Below, in pieces: positions 5,337 to 28,953 of a stretch of DNA of 64,000 nt. Both the position numbers and the translations under genes were made by a program. The notes below the pieces were generated by a model. That model saw only the letters and a program-made list of their open reading frames with translations, had not been told where the DNA came from and searched no databases. Location: assembly GCA_022821965.1 (NCBI GenBank), contig JAJECN010000059.1, positions 62,001-126,000 on the forward strand. The letters run 5' to 3'. Every line of letters starts with the position of its first letter. Position 1 is the stretch's first letter. This DNA is from Candidatus Poribacteria bacterium (lineage in GTDB: Bacteria; Poribacteria; WGA-4E; WGA-3G).

Positions 5337-6788
5337 TTATATTTCTGAACGGAGGAAGACGAGGAATGCACCTGAAAGAAATATACCGAGTAGTAAAATG
5401 AGCAACAGTATATCCATTATAGCCGAGTTGAGTGTATCTTGAAAAGTTAACTTATCCTCAAACATCGGTATAGCCTCTGGTGAGACAGGCTTTTCTGACA
5501 TGCCTTTCGGGATGCCGATGAAGTGAAGGCTTTCTGGATCTGCTCTATCCATTTCAACGATAAAGTCTCGGAACTGACGGATATGAAAATGGCAATGTTC
5601 TAAGAACTGCAAATGGCGATTAAAACCTGTACCTGCCATGGATTCAAGGGCGTATTGGACAATCGCCGCAGGGGAGCACCGGGTTATCTGTCTTGCGCGC
5701 AGCACTTGCGCACTTTGTGCAGCGAGATATTGGCGGCTAATCCGCTCCCGCGTCTCCATATCTTTGTTAACGAACTCGCGCTGGATCTCTAATTCTGAAG
5801 TGTCTACCTCTGCAACTTCTTCCTGAGAGGTTCCTGCTGATTGACGGCGTTGTTTTAAAGTTTCCCTTTTGTTGAGGAAATCGCTTAAAATTTGGTCGAA
5901 GGCGGTCCCTTTTGCCATCCGAAATTGATGGTGCGTTTGGACAGAGGGCATCCATTTTGTTGAGAGGGTGCCAAGGGTTGATGGCATAAACACGACGACG
6001 GTCACCCAAATTAGCAACAGGACAACGAGGCTTAACCGGCTTTCTCGTGTCATCGCGGAGACGATAAGCCCAACTGCGATGAAGATGCCAGCATAGCAAG
6101 AAGCGATGAGGACGATGAGCCCTACGCGTCCCCAGTCTGTCCCACTGAGCTGCGTCCAACTCTCGGTGGAAATGATGGCAAGATTGAACAACACCGCAAA
6201 ATAGAAAGGGATAAGGACTGCGATCACCGAGCCAAGGAATTTACCGACTAACAGGGCGGGGCGCGAGATGGAATTTGCGAGACACAGCCGCAATGTACCG
6301 CGTTCTCGTTCCCCAGAGAGCGCGTCAAAAGTAAAGAGAAGGGGAATGAACGAGAGCAGGTAAGTGATGATAAAGACCCAATCAATCACCACGGCGGTCG
6401 GGCGGTGATTGCTGATCGCATTCATATTCAGACGTGGAACGCCCATTGCCCAAATGCTGGTGGATCCGTAGAGTCTCCAGGAACCGGCACTCATGGTTTT
6501 GCTTGGCAAGAACGCGTCTCCTCCATCGGCAATGAAGGTGAGGGTGGAGGGACGTTTGTATAGTTTACCGGGACCCTTTTGCAGCAGCGCATATAACTGA
6601 GTGCGAGATTTCAACTCGGTGTGCGATGCACTAACGTTCTCGGAATATTTCCGAACGCGTTCAGGGTGTGTCTGAAGATGCACAACGGCGTTGGTGACCA
6701 TTAATGCTACAAGGATGAGCGTGGTTAAGGCGAAGCGGAGACTTGTAAGATGGTCTAAAAGTTCATGTGTGACAATATGCCAAATCAT
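5337..6788 (-). CDS. ABC-2 type permease, paralogue A
   Basis: A 483-aa inner-membrane protein of the ABC-2 permease superfamily. One TM helix at residues ~16-36 is followed by a periplasmic stretch to ~135. A TM cluster starting at W137 contains the hallmark FTFDALSGERERGTLRL, a long polar loop spans ~275-450, and a last TM ends the protein. It lies 124 nt downstream of permease B (6913-8484); the two probably form a heterodimeric channel. The same A/B pair is repeated at 16922-20073. A and A' share the LTF.ADG.D.F motif and similar C-terminal tails. No ATP-binding subunit is encoded next to it. The substrate is unknown. Confidence 0.85.
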   Translation of the reverse strand: MIWHIVTHELLDHLTSLRFALTTLILVALMVTNAVVHLQTHPERVRKYSENVSASHTELKSRTQLYALLQKGPGKLYKRPSTLTFIADGGDAFLPSKTMSAGSWRLYGSTSIWAMGVPRLNMNAISNHRPTAVVIDWVFIITYLLSFIPLLFTFDALSGERERGTLRLCLANSISRPALLVGKFLGSVIAVLIPFYFAVLFNLAIISTESWTQLSGTDWGRVGLIVLIASCYAGIFIAVGLIVSAMTRESRLSLVVLLLIWVTVVVFMPSTLGTLSTKWMPSVQTHHQFRMAKGTAFDQILSDFLNKRETLKQRRQSAGTSQEEVAEVDTSELEIQREFVNKDMETRERISRQYLAAQSAQVLRARQITRCSPAAIVQYALESMAGTGFNRHLQFLEHCHFHIRQFRDFIVEMDRADPESLHFIGIPKGMSEKPVSPEAIPMFEDKLTFQDTLNSAIMDILLLILLLGIFLSGAFLVFLRSEI

Positions 6789-6912
6789 TCTTTTACTTTT
6801 CCTTGCGGTTCGTTCAGGTCAGTTGTAGAAGGAACGATTCTGTCCGTATATCCAGCCCGGCCCGTTGGTTGGGCTTACATGCCTTGGCCCTATCCGTAGC
6901 CTAACGACCATT

Positions 6913-8484
6913 CTATACTTCAATTTTGATGAAGACCAGAAATGTTACCATGAATAGGACGAGGTTGATGAATACCAGCAAAAGTAATTCCGGTAGGGCG
7001 CGCTGTGCGTTGATGCTGACATCTGCTCGCTCAAAACGAAAGTCAGGCAGAATCGACCAGTCTACCGTTCCTTGATTCGTTGAAAACCATTGTAGACTCG
7101 CGAAGGCATCTCTTTCATGAAAAGCGTCAATGAGGGTACGCCGGTATGTCTGCGCGGCTCGTATATAGTCGGTCATGCTGTCTAAATCGGTACCTGCCCA
7201 CGCGGCGGTTGCGAACGTGTACAGACTCGCCGGACTGAGTTTCATGAGTCGTTCATCCCATTGTGCTTGCCGGCGGGATATCTGTGCGACCAGTTGCTCC
7301 CCAACTAAGTACACCTTTTCGGCATTCTGGATTTGCAGCATCGCGGCGAATTCATAGTAACGGCGCAAGTGTGTTACCAAGGGATCCGCAGTATTTTTCA
7401 ATTCAATTTCGATGTTAACCCGAGGGAAATCTCCAAGATACCACCCTCCGCCTTTAAAGAAGTCGGTCCCTGTAAATGTGTCGAAAAATATTGGGGGGTC
7501 TCCCTTAAGGGGACTACTCGCCAAGAACCGATCCCGTTCTCGATCTGCCTCTTCCCGAATCTGTGCTATCTGCTGGTTAGCGGATAATTTCTCTGCACGC
7601 ATGTCGCCGACTGGATTCAGGGCAAACCGGCTCCAGTTTGGATAGACAAACACCAAAACTACCCACAGGAACATGCAGAGCATCAGGGATGTGGCAGCCC
7701 GGCGGGTTGTTGTGGAAATGAGCAGACCGATCAGGTAGAAAACCGATAGGTAGACGATTGTTGTCAAAACAATACCGCCAATTCGTAGAAAGTCGTCTGT
7801 GCCGAATTGCAGGGAACGCGCGAAAGAACACTGAATCAGGGCGAGCAGTAGACTCATTAATATAGGGAGCAGGAGACAGACCATCGCCGCGATATATTTG
7901 GCAAGCAGAACGCTCCCGCGCCCGACAGGGTGTGAGAGCACCAATCGTAAGGTGCCGGTTTCCCAATCTCCCGCAATGGCATCATAAGCAAAAAGCAGGG
8001 ACAGTAGACTCAACACAACTTGAAAGGTAAAGACGAGGTCTATCTGTGAAAAGAGATGGAGATAGGGGTTCTTTAAACCGAGGGGTGCCCCGGGGTTTGA
8101 GAGGGACGGCACTCTATTAAACGTCCACTGGTATTCTTCGTCGGATTTGCCCTCGGCTATGGGGTCTGATAGGGCTGGGACACTGTTAAAGGCTATATCA
8201 ATATCGCTGCCAAAACGCGTCTCTAAGCCAGCACTAAAGAGACTCAGGGGGTTCGGAGGACGCTGAACTTTCAACTTCAAGACCGAATAGGCAGGTGTTG
8301 CGGCGACTGTCTCGCGATTCACGGCTTCTTTCTGGCTATAGTCGGCGAGGCGTTCTTCGTGTGCACCGATCAGGACAAACGTATTGGCGACAACGAGCAG
8401 GAGTGTAATGATGACCGCAGCGAAAAAACGCGCGCTCATCAGATGGGTCAAAAGTTCTTGGCGTATCAGGGTTAGGAACATCAT
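6913..8484 (-). CDS. ABC-2 type permease, paralogue B
   Basis: A 523-aa ABC-2 type permease. An N-terminal TM lies at residues ~20-40, followed by a ~110-residue periplasmic region. The TM cluster contains FAYDAIAGDWETGTLRLVLS, the family's cytoplasmic signature, then a long polar loop with a final TM near residues 500-520. Its ATGATG start follows the PhyH stop codon with zero spacing (TAAATGATG), so translation is probably coupled to the PhyH gene. Its closest relative in the window is 18535-20073, shown by the shared PNPLSLF/NPLGIF segment and the FS.(N/D)QG motif near the C-terminus. No ATPase partner lies nearby. Exported substrate is unknown. Confidence 0.85.
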   Translation of the reverse strand: MMFLTLIRQELLTHLMSARFFAAVIITLLLVVANTFVLIGAHEERLADYSQKEAVNRETVAATPAYSVLKLKVQRPPNPLSLFSAGLETRFGSDIDIAFNSVPALSDPIAEGKSDEEYQWTFNRVPSLSNPGAPLGLKNPYLHLFSQIDLVFTFQVVLSLLSLLFAYDAIAGDWETGTLRLVLSHPVGRGSVLLAKYIAAMVCLLLPILMSLLLALIQCSFARSLQFGTDDFLRIGGIVLTTIVYLSVFYLIGLLISTTTRRAATSLMLCMFLWVVLVFVYPNWSRFALNPVGDMRAEKLSANQQIAQIREEADRERDRFLASSPLKGDPPIFFDTFTGTDFFKGGGWYLGDFPRVNIEIELKNTADPLVTHLRRYYEFAAMLQIQNAEKVYLVGEQLVAQISRRQAQWDERLMKLSPASLYTFATAAWAGTDLDSMTDYIRAAQTYRRTLIDAFHERDAFASLQWFSTNQGTVDWSILPDFRFERADVSINAQRALPELLLLVFINLVLFMVTFLVFIKIEV

Positions 8485-9285
8485 TTAATTTAAAAATTCA
8501 TTGGGAATCTGTGAGTTGGGATAGTCCTTGGTTTCATCTCGATTTAAAACGGATTCAGGGATTTCGTCGTTCCAATAGTCTGGAATAGTGCTCGGGCGGC
8601 GAATCCATACGAGAAGCATTGTGCGTCTTCTGTCCGTATAGTTTTTCCGTACGGAATGCAAAAGGCGTGCATCTCGCATCACTAATGAACCTGCTTTGAC
8701 ACAAACATCTACCTGATCCGGATGGTCACTGAACATCACAGTATATTTTTCCTTAGATTCTGATCCGGGTTGATGGATATCACCGAGTTCGCTTCCGTAG
8801 AGAAGTTTATCGTGCAAATCAATACGCTTGTAATGTGTGCTCGGAATAACCTTTAAACAGCCGTTTTCTGGTGTTGTATCCGTGAGATAATACTTCATAA
8901 AGATATCTTGCGGCCAAGGCGCGCAACTGATTGGATCGTTCCAATGGTACCAATCTTGATGCCAGTAGAGTGGGGGTGCTCCTGGATCTTTCGTTAGAAT
9001 CGTGATGCCTTTGGCGACTGGGAAATCGCCAAACCCCATTTTTTCTAATGCATTGAGCGTAGGTTGCCATTCTAATAGTTTCTGAACGAGCGTATTGTCT
9101 TTGCTTGTAACTTGTAGGTGATGTCCATGGTATCTGGTGTGTTCCGGTGGCACATAATTAGCGAGAAGTTGTTCCGATTCGTCACGGAGTTCCTGCAAGA
9201 ATTCATCTGCGAGAATGTTGTTGATGACACAGAAACCGTCGCTAATCATTTGCTCGCGTTTTTGCAAAGCGATTTCAGGGGGCAT
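8485..9285 (-). CDS. Phytanoyl-CoA dioxygenase (PhyH) family protein
   Basis: A 266-aa member of the PhyH family of Fe(II)/2-oxoglutarate-dependent oxygenases. The iron-binding HxD is visible in YWHQDWYHW and the distal His in ARLLHSV, followed by the Arg-rich 2-oxoglutarate-binding stretch (RRRTMLLVW). The ATG has GGAGAA upstream. It lies between the ECF-DnaN fusion (153 nt upstream) and ABC permease B, which it abuts directly. The family hydroxylates diverse small molecules, so the substrate cannot be predicted. Confidence 0.9.
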   Translation of the reverse strand: MPPEIALQKREQMISDGFCVINNILADEFLQELRDESEQLLANYVPPEHTRYHGHHLQVTSKDNTLVQKLLEWQPTLNALEKMGFGDFPVAKGITILTKDPGAPPLYWHQDWYHWNDPISCAPWPQDIFMKYYLTDTTPENGCLKVIPSTHYKRIDLHDKLLYGSELGDIHQPGSESKEKYTVMFSDHPDQVDVCVKAGSLVMRDARLLHSVRKNYTDRRRTMLLVWIRRPSTIPDYWNDEIPESVLNRDETKDYPNSQIPNEFLN

Positions 9286-9297
9286 TAAAGTTCTCCA

Positions 9298-9314
9298 TTA
9301 GGACTTACGCAGTG
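9298..9314 (+). repeat. TTAGGACTTACGCA motif, possible insertion-sequence end
   Basis: TTAGGACTTACGCAGTG lies just before the PhyH start. It closely matches TTAGGATTTACGCAAAA at 24077-24093, where it borders a probable transposase remnant. This is probably a solitary IS-end relic. Confidence 0.35.
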
Positions 9315-9320
9315 TCCTTT

Positions 9321-9348
9321 GCTGGGCGAGGTTTTAAACCTCGCCAGC
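9321..9348. repeat. GC-rich palindrome between the ECF-DnaN fusion and PhyH
   Basis: GCTGGGCGAGGTTT and AAACCTCGCCAGC form a near-perfect hairpin with one bulged G. It is not followed by a T-run, so it is more likely a dispersed palindromic repeat or mRNA-processing hairpin than an intrinsic terminator. Confidence 0.5.
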
Positions 9349-9438
9349 GGCGTGCGGGCCGATAGTATCCTTCTAAACCGTGTGGACATTTCTTGAAGGT
9401 TGGTTGTTGATCACTGACTGCTGTAAGAAAAGAGATGC

Positions 9439-11160
9439 TTAGGATTCTAAGTTCATTGGGCAGATGAGACAGAGATGTCCTTCTGCACCAATCGGTTTAA
9501 CAATGACAGGTTGCAGCGCACTTGAGAACTCCAGTATGACAGACTCCGTTTCAATGTGTGAGAGTGTCTCTATGAACAGCTGAGCATTCATACCGATACG
9601 GATACTTCCAGTGCTGGATTCCACTGCTAATGTCTCATGTACCTCATCCGGTTCAGGGGTTTCCGCTGAGACCCGCATCTGTTGTTCATCTATTTCTAAA
9701 CAAACCTTAAAGGTTTTCGGATCTGACACCAACGAAACCTTACGCATCGCCTGCAAAATAGGTGCTTTCGGTACAACTGTCCGCACCTCAGGAGACACTG
9801 GAATGATCTTCTCATACGGCGGATATTCAGCGTCTACCAATCGCGTCGTCACCGTAGCGCGCTCATCCGCAAAGAGAATCTGGTTCTCAATGTGTGAAAT
9901 CCTTACCTCTGCGGAATTGGCGAAGGTTCGTTCAATCTCTTTGACGGCTTTGAGCGGTACGATGAATCCATCGCTATCTTCAGACAATTTAAAGGGTTCG
10001 CAATGTGCGAGGGCAAGTTGTATACCATCGGCTGCAACGATCTCGGTTCTGTCCTCAAGCAGGTTAAAGTAAAGCCCGTTTAGACAGGTCTGTCGGGCTT
10101 TCTTTGCAGGTGCAGCAAATTCAGTTTTGTAAAGAACAGACCTCAGTGTTTCTCCGTCAATAGCGAATGCTGCCTTGTCAACGGAAGGGAGTTGTGGGAA
10201 TTCTTCATCGGCAAGTTTGACGGTTTTGTGAACACCGTTTCCAGAAGTGATTTCAATCCGGTTGCCTGTTGTTGTGGTCAGGTCTATCGGTTTCTCAGCG
10301 GGCCACGCTTTAACGATATCCGCCAATTTCCCAGCGGGGACAAGGATTGTGCCTGTTTCTTTGACTGTCCCGTCAACTGTCATTTTGATGCCGATTTCCA
10401 TGTCTGTCGCCATGCACTCAATCGTGCTTCCCTCCGCACGGATGAGAACATTTGAGGCAATAGGTGAGATATTCGCGACTCCCTGCAGCATTTGTAGAGA
10501 GGCTAAAAGGTTATCTCTTTCAAAGGTTAATTTCATTCCGAAATCTCCATTCAAATGTTTTTGCGAGCGATGTTCGCCTTCGATTGTGATATCTAACGCT
10601 TCTTGAATCATGAATTCATACTTCTTTAGCTGTTGCCGCGCACGGAGGAGACGGCTCCTAATCGTATTTTCTGGTACACCTAAGAGGTTAACTATTTCTG
10701 CATAAGTCATGCCTTCAAGGTAATGAAGCGTGATGACTGTTCGGTTGGTTTCCTTTAACTTCGCAAGCAACTTTTCGACCAAGTCGCGTCGCGCTTCAGC
10801 AAAAGTTTCCGCGTGTTCTGTTGCGACAAATCGGGAGTATGCTTCTGTCTCTATTCCTGAGAGGTCGGTTTCTTCGAGTGGTTCGGTTTGTCGCTGATTT
10901 TTTCGGAGCCACGCGATACAGAGCCGATCTGCAATCACATAAAGCCATCTTGGAAAGCGTGTTGGGTCTTCCAAGGTTTCCAATTTCTGATAGGCTTGCA
11001 GAAAGGTCTCCTGCGTAATATCTTCAGCGATATGGAAATCCCGAATTTTCCGCCATGCGAGCGTGTGGACCTGTTTCTGGTACTTTCTAACCAGACTTGC
11101 AAAGGCGGTCTCATCACCCGCAAGGATGCATTGGATCAACACAACATCGTCGTTTTTCAT
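9439..11160 (-). CDS. ECF sigma factor fused to a complete DnaN-like sliding clamp
   Basis: A 573-aa fusion. Residues 1-185 are an ECF sigma factor: region 2 (ITQETFLQAYQKL, FPRWLYVIADRL) and region 4 (TVITLHYLEGMTYAEIVNLL, then NTIRSRLLRARQQL). After a ~25-residue linker, residues 209-573 are a full three-domain DNA polymerase III beta clamp starting MKLTFERDNLL and about as long as E. coli DnaN (366 aa). The clamp's partner-pocket motif, TDGHRLA in E. coli, reads ADGIQLA here, and the usual C-terminal MPMRL reads CPMNLES, so partner binding is probably altered. I chose ATG 11160 (GGAGA seven bases upstream) over TTG 11163. Met209 has its own Shine-Dalgarno. No anti-sigma gene is adjacent. 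It is probably regulated through the clamp domain (inference). Confidence 0.92.
   Translation of the reverse strand: MKNDDVVLIQCILAGDETAFASLVRKYQKQVHTLAWRKIRDFHIAEDITQETFLQAYQKLETLEDPTRFPRWLYVIADRLCIAWLRKNQRQTEPLEETDLSGIETEAYSRFVATEHAETFAEARRDLVEKLLAKLKETNRTVITLHYLEGMTYAEIVNLLGVPENTIRSRLLRARQQLKKYEFMIQEALDITIEGEHRSQKHLNGDFGMKLTFERDNLLASLQMLQGVANISPIASNVLIRAEGSTIECMATDMEIGIKMTVDGTVKETGTILVPAGKLADIVKAWPAEKPIDLTTTTGNRIEITSGNGVHKTVKLADEEFPQLPSVDKAAFAIDGETLRSVLYKTEFAAPAKKARQTCLNGLYFNLLEDRTEIVAADGIQLALAHCEPFKLSEDSDGFIVPLKAVKEIERTFANSAEVRISHIENQILFADERATVTTRLVDAEYPPYEKIIPVSPEVRTVVPKAPILQAMRKVSLVSDPKTFKVCLEIDEQQMRVSAETPEPDEVHETLAVESSTGSIRIGMNAQLFIETLSHIETESVILEFSSALQPVIVKPIGAEGHLCLICPMNLES
10534..10548 (-). 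promoter_or_regulatory. Internal ribosome binding site and ATG at the sigma/DnaN joint
   Basis: GGAGA (10548-10544), seven bases, then ATG (10536-10534) sits exactly where a free-standing DnaN would begin (MKLTFERDN). The spacing is ideal, so a separate 365-aa clamp could be made from the same message. Confidence 0.55.
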
Positions 11161-20146: not shown

Positions 20147-20959
20147 CTACATCCCCTCGCCATCCAAGTATTTGAGTGGGCTTTCGACGATGTAATCTCC
20201 CGAATCCTCAAGGAATTGTTGGACGAGGAAGACGTGCTCGGCACCAATAATCAACAGAATGCGATCGTCAGCAGATTCGGTGATGCGCGTCAGATTCACA
20301 AAAATCTTGAGATTCCGAGTATACCACAAACGCCCAACCCAATTGGCACCTGGGTACTGATCGCCGAGCCCAACACGCGCTATCCGCAAGTACTCTTGAT
20401 GGTCAGCGCGTGTGCCTTCAGGCTGATTGAATCGTCTGTACATGTCGATTATCGGTTCGTATTCCTCAGGTTCAATCCAGACTGTGCCATCTGCATCCTG
20501 TGTAACCTTCCCTTCAGCCGTAGGAGGTTGCCCCATGAGGTGTTCCTGATTATTTGCTTTTGCGAACTTGTCAGGGTTTACCAAATCCCAGTCAAAGTCC
20601 TCTGGAAAAAAACCGTCGGGTTCCTCAGAATAGTTTCGGAAATAATCAACGCAGTAGAGCTTGGGATGACCCATCTGTTTAGCTAACCGAAATCCAATTT
20701 GGTTGCCCTCTCCACGCTTGAGTTCGTATGTGCCTTCCAGATAGCCGTGGTAGTCTGCGTTAATCCCAGCGTCAAATCTTTCGTCTACCTCAAGGGCTAT
20801 TTTGGTGGGCTGAAACGGCTTGAGTTGCGTCACGAGTTGTTCTATTTCGCGCTGGCGTTTTGGCGCGAGCACATCATCCATTTTATAATTAAAACCATCC
20901 ATTCCGGGATTCGCTAAGTGTCCGCTGCCGAGAATCATGACTGTGGGTTTTTGCGTCAT
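20147..20959 (-). CDS. DUF5694 family protein, array member 1
   Basis: A 270-aa protein of the DUF5694 type: MILGSGHLANPG at the N-terminus, then DDVLAPKRQREIEQL, FQPTKIALEVD, and a C-terminal ILLIIGAEHVFLVQQFL. The GxxH-plus-Glu-plus-second-H layout resembles TraB/PrgY/TIKI-like putative metallohydrolases (family resemblance from memory). Here the first His (GSGH), the Glu (ALEVD) and the second His (GAEH) are all present. There is no signal peptide, so it is cytosolic. Its start overlaps the stop of the next array member by 4 bp, so the genes are coupled. Function is unknown. Confidence 0.85.
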   Translation of the reverse strand: MTQKPTVMILGSGHLANPGMDGFNYKMDDVLAPKRQREIEQLVTQLKPFQPTKIALEVDERFDAGINADYHGYLEGTYELKRGEGNQIGFRLAKQMGHPKLYCVDYFRNYSEEPDGFFPEDFDWDLVNPDKFAKANNQEHLMGQPPTAEGKVTQDADGTVWIEPEEYEPIIDMYRRFNQPEGTRADHQEYLRIARVGLGDQYPGANWVGRLWYTRNLKIFVNLTRITESADDRILLIIGAEHVFLVQQFLEDSGDYIVESPLKYLDGEGM

Positions 20960-21771
20960 TTGTTTAGTTTCTCCTCTCCACCTGCTTCTAAATATTGCAA
21001 TGGGCTTTCTATGTCATAGACTTCAGAGTCTTTGACAATTTGTTTAAGGAATCCTAAGTGCCCAGCACCGATGATTAGCAAAATACGCTCATCTTCTGAT
21101 TCCGTAATTCGGGTGAGATTGACGAAAGTTTTGAGATTCCGATTATACCAAAAATGTGCGACCCAATTCGCCCCCGGGTACTCGTCTTGAAGGCCAATTC
21201 GGGCAATCCGTAGGTAGTCGCGGAGGTTTGTGCGTATTTTTTCATCTTGATTGATCTGTATATACATGTCAACTATGGGTTCGTATTTTTCAGGCTCAAT
21301 CCAGATTTTGCCATCTTCATCCTGCGTCATTTTTCCAGTAGGTGGCGGCCCCAGAAGATGTTCCTGATCGTTCGTCTCTGCAAACGCGCCATAATCAGTC
21401 CAATGATCCTCCCGATCCTCCCGAACGATTGGATCATCGCGCAAATAATCTACACAGTGGACCTTTGGATGTCCCATCTGTTTCGCTAATCGGAATCCGA
21501 TCTGGTGGATTTCATGGGGTTTAAGTTGGAAGTTGTCCTTCAGATAGGCATCATATTCGTTCTGAAGTTCAGCCTCCCAATGTGTATCAACTTCGACGGC
21601 TATCTTCGTCGGTTTGAAACGGGCGAGTTGTTCAGCGAATTGTTGAAGTTCGGCTTGGCGTTTGGGTGCAAGGACATCGTCCATTCTATAATTGATTCGA
21701 TCTGCTCCCCAATTTGCCAAATGTCCACTACCGAGAATCATAATTGTCGGTTTCATTTGATCTTTCATCAA
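20956..21771 (-). CDS. DUF5694 family protein, array member 2
   Basis: A 271-aa paralogue with intact putative active-site motifs: MILGSGHLANWG, DDVLAPKRQAELQQF, FKPTKIAVEVD and the C-terminal IIGAGHLGFLKQI. The last is closest to the GxGH form expected of the wider TraB/TIKI group. There is no signal peptide. Both ends overlap neighbours by 4 bp (20956-20959 and 21768-21771). This is the most canonical member of the array and the best candidate for an active enzyme. Reaction is unknown. Confidence 0.85.
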   Translation of the reverse strand: MMKDQMKPTIMILGSGHLANWGADRINYRMDDVLAPKRQAELQQFAEQLARFKPTKIAVEVDTHWEAELQNEYDAYLKDNFQLKPHEIHQIGFRLAKQMGHPKVHCVDYLRDDPIVREDREDHWTDYGAFAETNDQEHLLGPPPTGKMTQDEDGKIWIEPEKYEPIVDMYIQINQDEKIRTNLRDYLRIARIGLQDEYPGANWVAHFWYNRNLKTFVNLTRITESEDERILLIIGAGHLGFLKQIVKDSEVYDIESPLQYLEAGGEEKLNK

Positions 21772-22697
21772 TTAGCGTCCTCCGTTTTTAGGTATTTGAG
21801 CGGGCTTTCGATGATGTAATCGCCTGAATCCTCAAGGAACTGCTGAATTAGAAAGACATGCTCGGCACCGATAATTAGCAGAATGCGATCATCGGTAGAT
21901 TCAGTGATTCGCGTCAGGTTCACAAAAATTTTGAAATTCCGAGCGTACCAATTATGAATGACCCAGTGTGCCCCTGGGTATTGAGTATCTATCCCAATTC
22001 GTGCAATGCGCATGTATGCTTGGTGATCGGCACGCCTGCCTTTAGGTTGATTGAGGTGCATGTATAGGTCAATAAGAGATTCGTGTTTGTCAGATTCAAT
22101 TAAGACTGTGCCATCTGCGTCCGGCGTAACTTTCCTATCAGTAGTAGGTTTCGGAGGAAGCAAGTGATCCTGATTGTGGGTTTTTGCAAACTGCTGATAG
22201 TCCATCAATTCTGAATCAATCTCACTCTCAGGGATACGGGGGGATTGTTCTGCCCAAAAATAATCCACACAGTGGACCTTCGGATGTCCCATCTGGTTTG
22301 CCAATCGAAACGCAATCTGATGAATTTCATGGCGTTTAAGCTGCAAGTTATCATCCAGATAGGCATTGTATTCCGCCTGTAGATCAGCATCCAAACGTGC
22401 GTCAACTTCAACGGCTATTTTCGTCGGTTTGAAGCGAGCAAGTTGTTCAACGAGTTGTTGAATCTCCGCTTGGCGTTTGAGAGCAAGCACATCATCCATT
22501 TTTGTGTTGTGTACATCCGCTCCCGGATTTGCCAAGTATGAACTGCCAAGAATCATAACTGTTGATTTTCTTGCCATTTGTGTAGTATTTCCTGTAGATA
22601 AGTCTGTCTTGTCGTCGCTTACGGTTGTGCCGACTGTAAATAACACAGTGGCGAGCAAAATCATCAAATAGAACTTGCATCTCACTAAGGATCTCAT
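21768..22697 (-). CDS. DUF5694 family protein with signal peptide, array member 3
   Basis: The start is placed at ATG 22697, preceded by AGGAGAAAG with good spacing; the frame extends to 22751 but lacks a ribosome site there. It gives 309 aa with an N-terminal signal peptide (MRSLVRCKFYLMILLATVLF), so it is exported, unlike members 1 and 2. The first motif reads MILGSSYLANPG: the histidine of GSxH is replaced by Tyr. The KIAVEVD Glu and the second motif (IIGAEHVF) remain. Probably altered or inactive at the first metal or catalytic position (inference). Confidence 0.83.
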   Translation of the reverse strand: MRSLVRCKFYLMILLATVLFTVGTTVSDDKTDLSTGNTTQMARKSTVMILGSSYLANPGADVHNTKMDDVLALKRQAEIQQLVEQLARFKPTKIAVEVDARLDADLQAEYNAYLDDNLQLKRHEIHQIAFRLANQMGHPKVHCVDYFWAEQSPRIPESEIDSELMDYQQFAKTHNQDHLLPPKPTTDRKVTPDADGTVLIESDKHESLIDLYMHLNQPKGRRADHQAYMRIARIGIDTQYPGAHWVIHNWYARNFKIFVNLTRITESTDDRILLIIGAEHVFLIQQFLEDSGDYIIESPLKYLKTEDAN

Positions 22698-22775
22698 AAA
22701 ACTTTCTCCTATTCGTGGTGAAGTTGATATTATGGAAAAAAGAATTACCAAATTTTCGACAATTGGAACAACGTG

Positions 22776-23693
22776 TTAAGGGGTCTGTATCTTCTCCGCA
22801 TCCAAGTATTTCAAGGGACTTTCTAAGTGGTAATCCCCTGAATTCTCAAGGAATTGTTGCACCAGATAGACATGCCCAGTGCCGATAATTAACAGAATTC
22901 GATCATCAGCGGATTCAGTGATGCGTGTTGTGTTCACAAAAATCTTGAGGTTCCGAGAATACCAACTGTGAACAAGCCAATTCGCACCTGGGTACTCGGT
23001 CCCGAGTCCAACTCGTGCAGAACGGATGTATCCTTGATGATCAGCACGTCTACTTTCAGGCTGATTGATTCGGATGTACTTGTCAATTATTGGTTCGTAT
23101 TTTTCAGGTTCAATCCAGATTTTGCCATCTGCGTCCCGAGTGACATTTTTCCCTGTAGGTGGTGGTCGGAGGAGGTGCTCTTGATTGTGAGCTTTTGCAA
23201 ATGCACCAGTGGCCATTAATTCGTGATCAATATGAACAGGCCAGTGTTTTGGCCAGTAATCCACACAATACACCTTTGGATGTCCGAACTCTTTTGCCAA
23301 CCTATATCCAATCTGGTCCCCCTCGTAAGGTTCGAGTTCGTATGTCCCGTTCAGATAGCCTTGATACCTTTTATTTTCAGTATCGCAACGGCTTGGATCC
23401 AACTCAACTGCTATCTTGGTAGGTTTAAATGCTTTGAGTTGTTCAACCAACTGTTCAATCTCGCGCTGGCGTTTAGGTGCGAGGACATCATCCGTTTTAG
23501 TATTGACTCCATCCAGTCCGGAACTTGTAAAGTGCCAACTACCAAGGATCATAATCGTCGGTTTTTTCGTTATTTGTGTCGTATCCCCTGTAGATTGGTC
23601 TGTCTGGTCATCGCTCATGGCTGTGCCGCCTGTAAGTAACACAATGGTGAGTAAAGTCATCAAATAGAATCGACATTTCACTAAGGCTTTCAT
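22776..23693 (-). CDS. DUF5694 family protein with signal peptide, array member 4
   Basis: A 305-aa exported paralogue: signal peptide MKALVKCRFYLMTLLTIVLL, closely similar to member 3, so these two are recent duplicates. Motifs are MILGSWHFTSSG (His kept), KIAVELD (Glu kept) and IIGTGHVYLVQQ (His kept). AGGAGAAAA precedes the ATG. The 78-bp gap to member 3 and the similar leader sequences fit a tandem duplication. Likely periplasmic; function unknown. Confidence 0.85.
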   Translation of the reverse strand: MKALVKCRFYLMTLLTIVLLTGGTAMSDDQTDQSTGDTTQITKKPTIMILGSWHFTSSGLDGVNTKTDDVLAPKRQREIEQLVEQLKAFKPTKIAVELDPSRCDTENKRYQGYLNGTYELEPYEGDQIGYRLAKEFGHPKVYCVDYWPKHWPVHIDHELMATGAFAKAHNQEHLLRPPPTGKNVTRDADGKIWIEPEKYEPIIDKYIRINQPESRRADHQGYIRSARVGLGTEYPGANWLVHSWYSRNLKIFVNTTRITESADDRILLIIGTGHVYLVQQFLENSGDYHLESPLKYLDAEKIQTP

Positions 23694-23778: not shown

Positions 23779-24076
23779 TTATGGAGTCTGCATTCCCTCC
23801 GTTTTTAGGTATTTCAGTGGACTTTCGACAATGTAATTTCCTGAATTCTCAAGGTACTGCTGCACCGGAAAGACATACCCGGCACCGATAATCAGTAGAA
23901 TTTGGTCGTCGTTAGATTCGGTGATCCGCGTCAAGTTCACAAAAATTTTGAGATTCCGGGCATACCAGAAGTGTGAAAGCCAATTCACCTCTTGATATTG
24001 GGCACCCATCCGGATACGGGTGCTCCGTAAGTGTGATTGATGATCAACACGCCTGACTTTAGTCTGATTATTCCGG
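23779..24076 (-). pseudogene. 5'-truncated DUF5694 remnant
   Basis: Only the last ~98 codons of a DUF5694 gene remain. The frame matches the family from NQTKVRRVDHQSHLRSTRI through IFVNLTRITES to VESPLKYL. Upstream the match ends abruptly at 24076, where the TTAGGATTTACGCA repeat begins, so the N-terminal two-thirds have been removed. The second motif has also changed to GAGY, with His lost. The break coincides with a probable IS end, suggesting insertion-mediated truncation. Confidence 0.75.
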
Positions 24077-24296
24077 TTAGGATTTACGCAAAATTGACGA
24101 GAATAGGAAGTTTTTCGATTTCACGTCGTATGTAATCATCGAATAAACTTTGTTTGAGGCGGTAGAGGAACTCCGCCATAGACAAGAATTTTGGGGTATT
24201 AAACCTTGTCGTATTCCCCGACATAAGCGTGAAACCTAACATTCTATGACACAATCTTTTTGTCTTGGTAAACACAGTTTCTGTCTGAGAGCGTGC
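24077..24296 (-). mobile_element. Probable insertion-sequence remnant (transposase 3' end with terminal repeat)
   Basis: An open frame reads TKTKRLCHRMLGF, then FNTPKFLSMAEFLYRLKQSL, and ends in PILVNFA. Its stop codon lies inside TTTGCGTAAATCCTAA, the inverse of the TTAGGAYTTACGCA repeat at 24077. A coding end running into a terminal repeat is typical of an IS. A TTACGCAAAAC counterpart in inverse orientation lies at 25568-25583. The protein fragment was not assigned to a transposase family, so this is a structural inference. Confidence 0.4.
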
Positions 24297-25448
24297 TTAA
24301 TCCGTAGTCTTCTGTAAATGAATGTTCCCACCGGAGGTGCGCAATTTCAGCAAGGGACCACCGCCATTTATACTACCTTTCAGGTTATTTCTCGGCACCT
24401 TCCCTTGAATAACCGAGTGCACCACAAAATCTGTTGAGACGCGCCCGCCACTGGTTTGCGCGTCTACGTCTATTGCGATATCTGGGATGAGCGTAATGGT
24501 TATACCGCCCCCTGATGTATGCAAATGGCACTTCTTCTGGGGTTGCGTTGTCATAGTGGTACGGATAGAACCGCCCGAGGTTTTGGCGTTTACATCCCCT
24601 TCGACCCTTTCTAAATTGATGCCACCGCCGGAGGTTTGGACATCTACCCTACCATTACATTTAGCAACCTTGATGCTCCCTCCTGAAGTTTTGCCCCAAA
24701 TAGAGCCCTGAATTTCGCCAAAACGGAGGCTGCCACCAGAGGTTCGCGCTTGAACATCACCTGCGACATCACTTACTTCAATACTACCACCAGACGTTTT
24801 CAAATCCACGGGGCTCCTACACGATGTGAGCTTGATGCTTCCACCGGATGTCCGTCCCCACACTTGACCTGTAATGTTCCGCAAACGCAAACTGCCGCCC
24901 GAGGTCTTCGCACGGACATCACCATCAAGGTCGGTTACCGAAATGCTACCTCTTGAGGTGTCCAAATCAACGTTGTACTGTTGAGGCACCGTCACCAGAA
25001 AATGAATTTTCAGTTGATTCAACTGTTTGCGCCAATGCTCTCGTCCCCGTTTGAACTTTCCCTCAATATAGACATCAGTGTTCTCGGGGGGGACTGACAC
25101 ATAAGCCGGATCCGCTTCTTCAAATATATGGGGACCGGTGTTCTCGGGGGTGAATGCCACTTCAAAATCAGAAAGTGCCTCTTTCACTGATCGATTTAAT
25201 GATGTTGTTGATTTTGTGACGACGATCTCAACCTTATCCTGCTCAGCGGTTTGAATATCAATCGCGCCGAACTCCGATACGATAGTCAAACTTCCACCAG
25301 CCTTGACACTAAGCGTTTTCTCAATCTTTTCCAAAACAGGTTCCTCCGCTCTTAGAGATGTAAATTGGCAGCTGGTACTATAGAGTAAAAGTAATACTGA
25401 ACAAAAAACGGGTAAGGGACTAAATATTTTCATTGTATTGTTAAACAT
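24297..25448 (-). CDS. DUF4097-type beta-strand repeat protein, exported
   Basis: A 383-aa exported protein. The N-terminal hydrophobic segment ends in a cysteine (YSTSC), so it may be a lipoprotein. After a ~130-residue lead-in, residues ~160-375 contain at least nine repeats of TSGG(S/G)I spaced ~20 residues apart, the right-handed beta-solenoid pattern of DUF4097. GAGAGGAA lies upstream of ATG 25448. DUF4097 proteins often accompany ECF/anti-sigma/DUF4252 genes, as here, and are thought to act in the cell envelope; no enzymatic role is known. The 5' region is partly duplicated upstream (a similar ATGAAGATATTAG at 25497), leaving an 18-codon frame overlapping this start. Confidence 0.85.
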   Translation of the reverse strand: MFNNTMKIFSPLPVFCSVLLLLYSTSCQFTSLRAEEPVLEKIEKTLSVKAGGSLTIVSEFGAIDIQTAEQDKVEIVVTKSTTSLNRSVKEALSDFEVAFTPENTGPHIFEEADPAYVSVPPENTDVYIEGKFKRGREHWRKQLNQLKIHFLVTVPQQYNVDLDTSRGSISVTDLDGDVRAKTSGGSLRLRNITGQVWGRTSGGSIKLTSCRSPVDLKTSGGSIEVSDVAGDVQARTSGGSLRFGEIQGSIWGKTSGGSIKVAKCNGRVDVQTSGGGINLERVEGDVNAKTSGGSIRTTMTTQPQKKCHLHTSGGGITITLIPDIAIDVDAQTSGGRVSTDFVVHSVIQGKVPRNNLKGSINGGGPLLKLRTSGGNIHLQKTTD

Positions 25449-25606: not shown

Positions 25607-26995
25607 TCAATTGATTACTGCTGGGCTTAAGTATTGCAGCGGGCTTTCGACGATGTAATCTCCCGAATCCTCAAGGAACTGCTGAATGAGGAAGACATGT
25701 CCGGCACCGATAATCAGCAGAATGCGATCATCGGTGGACTCTGTGATTCGCGTTAGGTTCACAAAATTCTTGAGATTATGCGCATACCACCAATGTGCAA
25801 CCCAATTGGCACCTGGGTATTGGTCACCAAGTCCGATGCGTGCGGTGCGCAGATAGCCTTGATGGTCGGCGCGGAGTTTTTCAGGCTCGTTAATCCGTAT
25901 GTACATGTCAATCAGGGGTTCGTATCCCTCAGGTTCAACCCAGAGTGTGCCATCTGCACTCTGCCGAATCTTTCCTTCGCTTGCAGAAATGCGCGGTAGG
26001 AGGTACGCCTGATTGTGTGCCTCCGCGAACGCGTCGTAGTCCATTAAACTCCCATCAATTTCATCACGAATCGGCCTGTGTTCGGGCCAGTCAGCAATAC
26101 AGTAAAGTTTCGGGTGTTCCATCTGTTTTGCTAACGGAAAACCGATCTGGTCCTCCAGCCTCCGTGTGGGTTCGTAGGTGCCTTCCAAGTAGCTTTGATA
26201 GTTTGCGTTAAGCTCGGCATCATAGCTATCGTCTGCATAAACAGCTATCTTGGTAGGATTAAACGCTTTAATTTGAGATATCAGTTGTGCCATTTCGCTT
26301 TGGCGTTTTGGCGCGAGCACATCATCCATTCTATAGTTGAATCTATTGATTCCCGGATTTGTGAAAAATCCACTACCGAGAATCATGACTGTCGTTTTCT
26401 CTCGCGGGTCTTCTCTTTTCCATTGCCCCTTCAATTTGTCGCCAAAATCGATGTCTATCGCACCAAAATTGCTTAGATTTCCGAGCAATTCCTCAATGCG
26501 TTCTGGTGCAATCTCTCCGACGATGTTGACAAAGGTGGCTTCTCCAGACCTTTTAGGAATTATGATAGCGAAGATCCCGTATACCTTGTCTTCGTCAAAC
26601 AGTAGATTAATCTCCACCGTTTCACTCTTTTCCTCAATCTTGACGAGGACTTCCCACTCATCTTTTTTGAGTTTTTCCTTGAAATAGTTAACCAATTTCT
26701 TCTCATCAATAGTTGCCCTGTCATAGGTGCGGACATAGATGCCGTCCAACATCTGAATCAGTTCGGCGACTTCTGGTTGATTGCTCACCGATTTGGTGAC
26801 CAAATTGATGAGTTTCGCGGTTAAGTTAACCTCGACTTTTGCCTCAAGCGGCTCCGGGAAATCGAAGAGGATAAGTCCTTTTTGATCGGTTTTGTCCGAT
26901 TTTTTCTGTTGCGCGACTGCTGAATGCGTCAGTGTTAGCGATAAGGTCAGAAACAGCAGTGTGAACAGTCGTATAAGGTGCTTTTGCAGTTTCAT
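25607..26995 (-). CDS. DUF4252-DUF5694 fusion protein, exported
   Basis: A 462-aa exported protein with a signal peptide (residues 1-28, ending SAVAQQ). Residues ~40-200 are a DUF4252 domain, homologous to the neighbour at 27048-27737 (KVEVNLTAKLINL, IYVRTYD, FVNIVGEI). From Met204 a DUF5694 domain begins (MILGSGFFTNPG). Putative catalytic residues are lost: GSxH reads GSGF and KIAVE reads KIAVY, while the second motif IIGAGHVF is kept. It is therefore probably a non-catalytic or binding version joined to the DUF4252 module. AAAAGGAG precedes the ATG. It lies in the ECF operon, 52 bp after the DUF4252 gene. Confidence 0.88.
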   Translation of the reverse strand: MKLQKHLIRLFTLLFLTLSLTLTHSAVAQQKKSDKTDQKGLILFDFPEPLEAKVEVNLTAKLINLVTKSVSNQPEVAELIQMLDGIYVRTYDRATIDEKKLVNYFKEKLKKDEWEVLVKIEEKSETVEINLLFDEDKVYGIFAIIIPKRSGEATFVNIVGEIAPERIEELLGNLSNFGAIDIDFGDKLKGQWKREDPREKTTVMILGSGFFTNPGINRFNYRMDDVLAPKRQSEMAQLISQIKAFNPTKIAVYADDSYDAELNANYQSYLEGTYEPTRRLEDQIGFPLAKQMEHPKLYCIADWPEHRPIRDEIDGSLMDYDAFAEAHNQAYLLPRISASEGKIRQSADGTLWVEPEGYEPLIDMYIRINEPEKLRADHQGYLRTARIGLGDQYPGANWVAHWWYAHNLKNFVNLTRITESTDDRILLIIGAGHVFLIQQFLEDSGDYIVESPLQYLSPAVIN

Positions 26996-27047: not shown

Positions 27048-27737
27048 TTAATGGTCGGTTGTTGTGGTTTCTGGTTTCGGCGCACTGTCCAGTTTTCCGG
27101 CGTTATTAATCCTTGCTACCCACTGTTGAGGCACGGAGGTGTTGGTCCAATTGCGAACGGCTTTAGAGATCGCCTCCTCCGAATTAGATTCCAGAAGTTG
27201 TCCAAATAGCGCACCGAGCTTCTGAAAGTCGATCTCTCCGTAGATGTTCACAAAGTTTGAATTCCTGTCATCTGTGAACATAAGGAAGATACCGTGCAGT
27301 ATGCCCGGTTTTTCGGCATAAAGCAGACTGAGATTGAATTTGTCCCTGATTTTGACGAGATGTTCCCACTTCTCGTTTTCAAGAATGCCACAATAGTGGT
27401 CGACTATCCGGTCGAGATCTTTCATCTCTTTATCGTAAGTTCGGATAGAGGCACCTTTTAACATTTCGGTATACGCTGCATATTCGGACAAATCTACCGA
27501 TTTATCTCCGGTAAGTTTCGGGTTACTCGCGATGCCGAAATTGATAAAGAGGTCCAGGAGACTCTTGTCCAAGTTAATTTCAACTTTAGGGACAGGGGTA
27601 TCTGGTAGATTCATTTCTATTTTACCGCGGGCTGTTTCTGTTCCGTCGTTTTTCAGGGCGTGCCCGTCGGTGAAGAAACAGCAGGCTATTAAAAAGGCTA
27701 TACCTATTAAAAGGGTTGTAAACGTGGATCTTTTCAT
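27048..27737 (-). CDS. DUF4252 family putative lipoprotein
   Basis: A 229-aa protein with a lipobox-like LIAC at residues 16-19, so it is probably a membrane-anchored lipoprotein. The DUF4252 domain covers ~45-190 (KVEINLDKSLLDLF, ASIRTYD, FVNIYGEIDF). Its start overlaps the anti-sigma stop by 4 bp. DUF4252 proteins are known mainly from their association with ECF sigma/anti-sigma pairs; their biochemical role is not established. The linker after 195 is polar and ends in a Thr-rich tail. Confidence 0.85.
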   Translation of the reverse strand: MKRSTFTTLLIGIAFLIACCFFTDGHALKNDGTETARGKIEMNLPDTPVPKVEINLDKSLLDLFINFGIASNPKLTGDKSVDLSEYAAYTEMLKGASIRTYDKEMKDLDRIVDHYCGILENEKWEHLVKIRDKFNLSLLYAEKPGILHGIFLMFTDDRNSNFVNIYGEIDFQKLGALFGQLLESNSEEAISKAVRNWTNTSVPQQWVARINNAGKLDSAPKPETTTTDH

Positions 27738-28411
27738 GGGGTTTCTCCTTCTTGCTGTGAGCGTTGATGTTCTGGACCTAAAACGTTCTGGGGGAACCGG
27801 TGAAGGCTATCCAGACCGCGGTGAAGTGCTGATGAAATACTGTTTTTCTGCTTCAAAGCACTACGAGAGGCTTTTTCTATCTGCACAAAAGGGCGACCTG
27901 ATGCCTCGTTAATCTGCACATCTGGGAGTTTCTCGCTAACGACGTTGCCTGTGCGCTCCACGGCGTAATTCAACTTACCGAGGGCATAAGCCAAGTCACG
28001 GGAGGCTTGTTGCACTTTCAGATGCTGTTGGTATTGATAGGTGCCAAATAGTGCGATTCCAATGAGGCACGCCAACGCACCTGCGCGAGCGAGTACCGAA
28101 GTTAAATCCTCCGAGAACGTGAACATTTGGAATATCTGATTTAGCCACTTTGGTCCCTTGTTGGGATGCGAGCGAACGTAAGCCTCGACCGCGTTGAAGA
28201 TTTCCTGCGGTGGCTCTGGTTTCGGAAGTTCGTGTAATGCTCCGCTAATTGCTTGAACGAAGCGAATTTCATCCTGACACATTGAACAGGATGCGACGTG
28301 TGCTTCTACTGTCGCGTGTGTGTCTGCATCCAATTCATTGTCAAGATACGCTTCTAAGGTATCCTGAACTTCCGTACAAGTTGGATCTTGACGGGCGGTA
28401 AATTGGTTCAT
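27734..28411 (-). CDS. Anti-sigma factor with zinc-finger (ZAS) domain
   Basis: A 225-aa membrane-anchored anti-sigma factor. The N-terminal ZAS motif is HVASCSMC (H-x3-C-x2-C, residues ~36-43). A single TM (ARAGALACLIGIALFGTY) lies near residues 113-130, with ~95 residues beyond it, probably periplasmic. Its start overlaps the ECF sigma stop by 4 bp (28408-28411) and its stop overlaps the DUF4252 start, giving a tightly coupled sigma/anti-sigma/effector operon. It should hold the sigma factor at the membrane until an envelope signal releases it. Confidence 0.9.
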   Translation of the reverse strand: MNQFTARQDPTCTEVQDTLEAYLDNELDADTHATVEAHVASCSMCQDEIRFVQAISGALHELPKPEPPQEIFNAVEAYVRSHPNKGPKWLNQIFQMFTFSEDLTSVLARAGALACLIGIALFGTYQYQQHLKVQQASRDLAYALGKLNYAVERTGNVVSEKLPDVQINEASGRPFVQIEKASRSALKQKNSISSALHRGLDSLHRFPQNVLGPEHQRSQQEGETP

Positions 28412-28953
28412 TCGTCATTTCTCCAGTAAGGACGCAGTAGTTCCCGCAATTTCTTGCGAGCACGAAATGCTGTTGATTTCACAGTACCTTCGGGTTGTTC
28501 TAAGATTTCTGCGATCTCTTTGAAACTCATGCCGTTCAATTCCCGCATAATTATCACTGACTGCATATCTGGCGGCAATTTTTTAATGGCACAATGGACG
28601 GATTCTTTGAGTTCTTGCTCGATCACAATTTCATCTGGTGTCGGATTTGACCGGTCAGAATGTGCGTTCATTAAAGTTTCGAGTTCTGTTCCAACGTCTG
28701 TATCGTCTCCTTCTGTTAAGTGCACCTGAAATTTGTGTCGCTTTAGCAGATTGAAACAGAGATTCTGCGCACATTTTAACATCCATGAACGTGCAGTCTT
28801 CGGACGCAATTTGGAACGGTGTTCCCACGCCTTGATGAATGTCTCTTGTGTTATATCCTCTGCATCTTCTCGATTTTTGAGTAGATAGAGGGTGTGTTGA
28901 TAAATCTGAGCCTTGTGTTTATGGACAAGTTCAAGGAATTTATCTTCTGTCAT
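28408..28953 (-). CDS. ECF RNA polymerase sigma factor
   Basis: A 181-aa two-domain ECF sigma factor without extension. Region 2 includes EDAEDITQETFIKAWEHR and WMLKCAQNL. Region 4 includes LPPDMQSVIIMRELNGMSFK and the helix-turn-helix EGTVKSTAFRARKKL. It is first in the operon with anti-sigma, DUF4252, DUF4252-DUF5694, DUF4097 and the DUF5694 array. A promoter-like motif at 28983-29020 is 30-70 bp upstream and probably marks autoregulation. In contrast to the two fused ECF factors in this window, it has a separate membrane anti-sigma. Confidence 0.93.
   Translation of the reverse strand: MTEDKFLELVHKHKAQIYQHTLYLLKNREDAEDITQETFIKAWEHRSKLRPKTARSWMLKCAQNLCFNLLKRHKFQVHLTEGDDTDVGTELETLMNAHSDRSNPTPDEIVIEQELKESVHCAIKKLPPDMQSVIIMRELNGMSFKEIAEILEQPEGTVKSTAFRARKKLRELLRPYWRNDE

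Follow-up and report, generated by a model that had tools for sequence, protein, structure and literature searches.

Does the joining of two protein families in one reading frame indicate that the families act together, and does the joined domain retain the function of its relatives? These questions are raised by a gene in a 64,000-nucleotide stretch (the window) of contig JAJECN010000059.1 from a Candidatus Poribacteria genome. The gene product couples a DUF4252 domain to a DUF5694 domain. To our knowledge, neither family has a known function. An earlier note on this DNA had described the reading frame as a fusion of the two families. Indeed, both halves scored far above their Pfam cut-offs: the DUF4252 half is a clear member of PF14060 (53.8 bits versus a curated cut-off of 23.9), and the DUF5694 half matched PF18950 with 138.9 bits versus 27.5 (residues 259-456, E = 3.2e-40). 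The proposed origins of the halves were also borne out. Specifically, the N-terminal half is homologous to the product of the upstream neighbour, 27048-27737 (30% identity, E = 2e-17), and the C-terminal half shares 52-63% identity with the four proteins of the DUF5694 array.

The fusion gene is part of a run of genes on one strand, in the order sigma factor, anti-sigma factor, DUF4252, fusion, DUF4097, DUF5694 remnant and four DUF5694 genes (Table 1). Several of these genes overlap by 4 bases. The sigma and zf-HC2 genes, overlapping and on the same strand upstream of the fusion, constitute a predicted ECF sigma/anti-sigma operon. A promoter and terminator scan of the region was uninformative, yielding counts equal to those of shuffled sequences. 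The array gene encoding GSSY (21768-22751) is the sole full-length array copy in the genus set that lacks the first His, and it occupies a long branch. The DUF5694 remnant (23779-24296) adjoins the DUF4097 gene. No counterpart of the latter turned up in congeneric fusion loci, and its arrival in the window locus may have cut a DUF5694 gene. A second locus of the same genome (L079, G000:C61:172000-184008; L and G numbers denote loci and genomes of the comparison) encodes an ECF sigma factor with BNR-like repeats and a pair of Omp85 barrel proteins, of which one clearly matches DUF4252 (8324-10813), and contains a DUF4159 gene (6197-6979).

Table 1. Features of the fusion locus, in window coordinates; residue numbers are those of the fusion protein.
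Feature	Coordinates	Strand	Basis or remark
ECF sigma factor, start of gene run	28408..28953	minus	Pfam
Anti-sigma factor, zf-HC2	27734..28411	minus	Pfam
Stand-alone DUF4252 protein, predicted signal peptide	27048..27737	minus	Pfam, alignment; N-terminus by inspection
Fusion gene DUF4252 + DUF5694: signal peptide, DUF4252, linker, degenerate DUF5694	25607..26995	minus	462 aa, ATG start
Predicted signal peptide of fusion, residues 1-28 (end AVA)	26912..26995	minus	Sequence inspection and hydrophobicity
DUF4252 domain of fusion, residues 55-170	26486..26833	minus	Pfam, E = 2.8e-14
DUF5694 domain of fusion, residues 200-456, predicted pseudoenzyme	25628..26398	minus	Pfam and alignment with array
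F210, family His (first GxxH)	26366..26368	minus	H in 81/83 array and 32/32 outside copies; fusions F 16/17, L 1/17
N217, family Asp	26345..26347	minus	N in 17/17 fusions
Y253, family Glu (KIAVE)	26237..26239	minus	E in 79/83 array and 32/32 outside copies; Y in 17/17 fusions
Residue 280, family invariant Glu	26156..26158	minus	E in 115/115 non-fusion copies; L, Y or S in 17/17 fusions
A301, family Asp	26093..26095	minus	D in 82/83 array and 32/32 outside copies; A in 17/17 fusions
H406, family Arg (WYxRN)	25778..25780	minus	H in 17/17 fusions
H433 of second GxxH (GAGH), retained	25697..25699	minus	H in 17/17 fusions
DUF4097 (toastrack) protein, between fusion and array	24297..25448	minus	Pfam
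DUF5694 remnant, truncated, C-terminal part only	23779..24075 (about)	minus	Sequence comparison
Array DUF5694, signal peptide, intact motifs GSWH, KIAVE, GTGH	22776..23693	minus	Alignment
Array DUF5694, signal peptide, GSSY (no first His), with Glu and second His retained	21768..22751	minus	Alignment
Array DUF5694 without signal peptide, intact motifs, structure modelled	20956..21771	minus	Alignment
Array DUF5694 without signal peptide, intact motifs GSGH, KIALE, GAEH	20147..20959	minus	Alignment

The earlier note had also predicted that the fusion lost active-site residues, with GSGF for GSxH and KIAVY for KIAVE, and that it kept the C-terminal GAGH. All three motif states were confirmed in the fusion. 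Family invariance was assessed in 83 copies from arrays and 32 from outside (Bacillota plus one distant Poribacterium), which yielded 36 invariant positions by the thresholds used. Aligning array and remote copies with 17 orthologous fusions revealed that the fusions lack six of these 36 positions, in every orthologue: H17, D24, E60, E87, D108 and R211 in the numbering of the modelled array protein (20956-21771), equivalent to fusion residues 210, 217, 253, 280, 301 and 406, respectively. The loss is therefore broader than first described, four near-invariant positions (D217N, E280L/Y/S, D301A and R406H) having gone unmentioned. All six lost positions are H, D, E or R, and none of the 26 positions of other kinds was lost by the set (Fisher p = 1.1e-4, lost H/D/E/R versus lost others). 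Five of the six replacements are fixed or nearly so, and only position 280 is variable. Among the other 30 invariant positions, 28 are unchanged in 17/17 fusions and two leucines are loosened, being kept in 8/17. The 17 orthologues rule out a sequencing error or an oddity of one genome as the source of the motif losses and, as all 17 share the same residue state, chance as the source of that state. Judged by these residues, the fusion is a DUF5694 member by descent and not by presumed chemistry.

The model of the intact array copy (20956-21771; mean pLDDT 86.5) contains strands at residues 9-12, 56-62, 105-108 and 230-233. In this model, H17, E60, D108 and H238 are located at or just past predicted strand ends. 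Active sites of parallel α/β folds sit at such strand ends, and the modelled positions would fit a site along the C-terminal edge of a sheet. In the fusion model, the DUF4252 half is similar to DcrB (6e8a; Foldseek E = 5.7e-5, prob 1.00), of the DcrB/EagT6/Mog1/PsbP fold, although the TM-score is low (0.42 by target), the model is of modest confidence, and the likeness is known from the fold match, not from sequence similarity. The DcrB/Mog1/PsbP fold is a fold of binding proteins.

A literature search found no paper naming DUF5694, a PDB sequence search with DUF5694 found no relative, and a Foldseek search with the array model returned no PDB match at E ≤ 0.001. Two divergent DUF5694 members gave sub-threshold matches to Pfam TraB_PrgY_gumN (PF01963), one at the N-terminal motif and one at the C-terminal motif. 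The TIKI/TraB-PrgY-GumN superfamily (PF01963, with Ere/ChaN relatives) resembles DUF5694 in having a GxxH after the first strand, a Glu ending the second and another GxxH near the end. Using hhalign, the DUF5694 profile aligned end-to-end with those of GumN and PrgY, with GxxH, Glu and GxxH in register. The scores, 32.3 with GumN and 29.5 with PrgY, were higher than any of 60 column shuffles for each pair (at most 27.6 and 25.6, respectively) and were about as strong as that of GumN with PrgY, 31.8. The pair E values were 0.002-0.003, at low probability and above 60/60 shuffles. Unlike the superfamily, DUF5694 has no match to PF01963 above the Pfam cut-off and no PDB fold match, and possesses extra invariant D, E, D and R residues without a tested TIKI counterpart. 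Based on the profile alignments and the absent fold match, DUF5694 is a likely, if unproven, member of a TIKI-like superfamily. As DUF5694 has no known activity and its model matched no PDB structure, the presumed catalytic nature of the site rests on conservation and weak profile similarity. In solved TIKI enzymes, hydrolysis requires a His-Glu pair (PMC6254334). In the fusion, by contrast, this pair is gone. A precedent exists in TIKI-fold proteins that kept the fold and lost the 2His/2Glu set (PMC6254334). The biology of those proteins is unrelated, whereas here the domain is joined to DUF4252 and belongs to an ECF-sigma operon in Poribacteria.

All 17 fusion frames are open. The median pairwise dN/dS was lowest in the DUF4252 half (0.094), intermediate in three array groups (0.134-0.140) and highest in the fused DUF5694 half (0.216). 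Thus, the fused DUF5694 domain is under selection, albeit less tightly than live copies. Based on the six shared losses and this continued constraint, it is well supported at the sequence level that the DUF5694 half is a conserved pseudoenzyme, the lost residues being presumed catalytic. The pseudoenzyme claim of the earlier note stands in this sense: the six losses in 17/17 orthologues and persisting purifying selection point to a domain retained for something besides ancestral catalysis. As the domain is kept by selection despite the lost residues, it is probably a binding part, not an enzyme.

Within the phylum, DUF5694 occurs in 55 of 85 Poribacteria genomes and DUF4252 in 65 of 85. The fused open frame, of 450-487 aa, was present in 17/38 genomes of the window's genus and in 0/47 other genomes of the phylum. 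Among 102 DUF5694 domains placed in a tree, the 17 from fusions grouped as a single clade (SH-aLRT 100) within the array radiation, establishing that the fusion arose once. The DUF4252 halves are short and gave a weakly resolved tree, which did not reject a single origin (AU p = 0.556). Two other DUF5694 genes were observed in this survey. The first, from a distant family of the class (L064:6669-7532), clusters with array genes from the window's genus, making it a candidate for lateral transfer. The other is an open frame (L051:3805-5211) in which DUF5694 is preceded by a stretch resembling an ABC transporter membrane region (weak Pfam match, below the cut-off).

Other congeners and the sister genus have, in the slot that separates the DUF5694 array from the anti-sigma (or DUF4252) gene, a DUF4252-CBM9-Omp85 gene encoding ~820-870 aa. 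With the sister genus taken as the outgroup, a choice on which the ancestral status of the barrel form depends, replacement is the simplest account of the fusion. Sequence comparison suggests that DUF5694 most likely replaced the barrel half and came from next door. In one congener, the slot-2 gene (L149:5184-6749) encodes DUF4252, CBM9 and a truncated barrel ending in the last ~25 residues of a DUF5694 protein, and is a snapshot of joining by deletion. In another, L072, the barrel has an internal deletion. Thus, deletions joining slot 2 to the array do occur, and we infer both the direction of the swap and a deletion mechanism. No CBM9 or barrel remnant was found beside the fusions. The one match, in L040, was rejected as such a remnant: it is well downstream and resembles the separate CBM9 gene that often follows these arrays. 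Gene conversion by array copies was similarly rejected as the cause of the retained C-terminal GAGH, as every segment of the G000 fusion was at least as close to orthologous fusions as to its own array. A short candidate conversion tract was found in L041, in one genome only. In another family of the order, sigma and anti-sigma genes are followed by a gene that fuses DUF4252 to a DUF4097-like region (L157:5536-6678, L158:2890-4254 and L162:5671-6819); in the window, DUF4097 adjoins the fusion.

The earlier note had read the fusion as a Rosetta-stone hint that DUF4252 and DUF5694 proteins work jointly. In a general form of this reading, the two families would usually be coupled in function and the fusion would report it. 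Consistent with such coupling, the families are neighbours in one gene run in many Poribacteria, and DUF4252 is present in 49/55 DUF5694-bearing genomes versus 16/30 without DUF5694 (Fisher p = 4e-4, not corrected for kinship). However, DUF4252 is absent from 20/20 tested DUF5694-bearing Bacillota genomes and from six DUF5694-bearing Poribacteria genomes. Elsewhere in the phylum, DUF4252 proteins (PF14060) stand alone or the domain precedes other partners, relatives joining it to POTRA-Omp85-type barrels, CBM9-Omp85 or DUF4097. Moreover, the fusion is the sole DUF5694 gene of G005, a single-contig genome of 95% completeness, and the drafts G029 and G084 look alike; the fusion can therefore persist without array partners. 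Finally, adjacent genes were joined only once, at a locus prone to deletions, and the joining most likely replaced a CBM9-Omp85 half. As adjacency and deletion explain the fusion, it is weak evidence for joint action. We accordingly regard the Rosetta-stone reading as unsupported in its stated form and general coupling of the two families as unlikely.

The fusion probably represents an envelope adaptor that carries a non-catalytic binding module, arising from the one-time replacement of a CBM9-Omp85 half by an array DUF5694 domain. The ancestor would have been a DUF4252-CBM9-Omp85 protein encoded in an ECF-sigma operon in one genus of Candidatus Poribacteria. Its CBM9-Omp85 half would have been swapped once for the DUF5694 domain of the adjoining array, most simply by deletion between neighbours. 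The acquired domain would then have shed the charged-residue constellation of a presumed hydrolase site of TIKI/TraB-like type, with purifying selection continuing to act on its folding core. In the present protein, DUF4252 would serve as the envelope, or docking, module of an exported protein, and the dead DUF5694 half may bind, without turnover, a ligand or partner on which active DUF5694 proteins act. An obligatory envelope role is a poor fit with four fusions from related genomes (G004, G005, G017 and G029; loci L047, L049, L050 and L052), in which the signal peptide is cleanly deleted in frame; the stand-alone DUF4252 gene is missing from these loci.

Other fates of the DUF5694 half were weighed against binding. 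In the regulatory role suggested by the earlier note, the fusion would form mixed assemblies with array DUF5694 enzymes and activate, inhibit or place them. The fusion adjoins intact paralogues in most fusion genomes, its conserved folding core could keep an interface, and a second dead lineage, described below, is likewise in tandem with an intact copy and under purifying selection. This role is nevertheless rather doubtful: G005 and the two similar drafts have the fusion as their only DUF5694 gene, and two of the intact array members of the window lack the signal peptide that the fusion has and so would not meet it. Alternatively, only DUF4252 would matter and the DUF5694 half would be a deletion by-product decaying slowly. 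Its evolution is faster than that of the DUF4252 half and intact copies, and the locus is rich in truncations and remnants. However, a dN/dS of ~0.22, well below 1 across 17 species, uninterrupted frames, the near-complete retention of the other invariant positions and the fixation of most replacements render passive decay quite improbable. It is more improbable still that the replacements build a different active site instead of none. The fixed replacements do include Tyr and His, and the His of the second GxxH is kept, but most replacements are Phe, Asn, Ala or Leu, and the fixed switches form no new acidic or metal-binding cluster.

Loss of these residues is not confined to the fusions. In a DUF5694 lineage of the sister genus, the Glu is replaced by Gln and the second His by Leu; in some members, the first His is also replaced by Leu. 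The Glu-to-Gln, second His-to-Leu state was observed at L117:5153-6001, L118:5971-6804, L125:6813-7613, L128:5965-6822, L132:5141-5998, L134:6771-7622 and L135:5965-6813. Several genomes have this lineage and an intact copy as a tandem pair, and the dN/dS of the lineage is 0.11-0.16. Dead copies beside live ones thus arose at least twice, through different losses. One tentative possibility is that Poribacteria repeatedly make dedicated binding subunits from hydrolase-like DUF5694 proteins, in at least two independent lineages of conserved dead members that mostly accompany live ones, and that DUF4252 is an envelope adaptor that swaps output domains (Omp85 barrel, CBM9-Omp85, DUF4097 or dead DUF5694) under one ECF-sigma switch.

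For the DUF5694 family, the contrast between the intact copies and the 17 dead ones points to residues to mutate in studies of its activity. The locus also provides a case in which gene fusion is weak evidence of joint action, being explained by adjacency and deletion. For DUF4252, an operon slot in which a dead enzyme half has taken the place of a barrel half yields the testable idea that it is an envelope adaptor. The host setting is that of sponge-associated Poribacteria, in which the fusion is predicted to be a cell-envelope protein with a swapped half.
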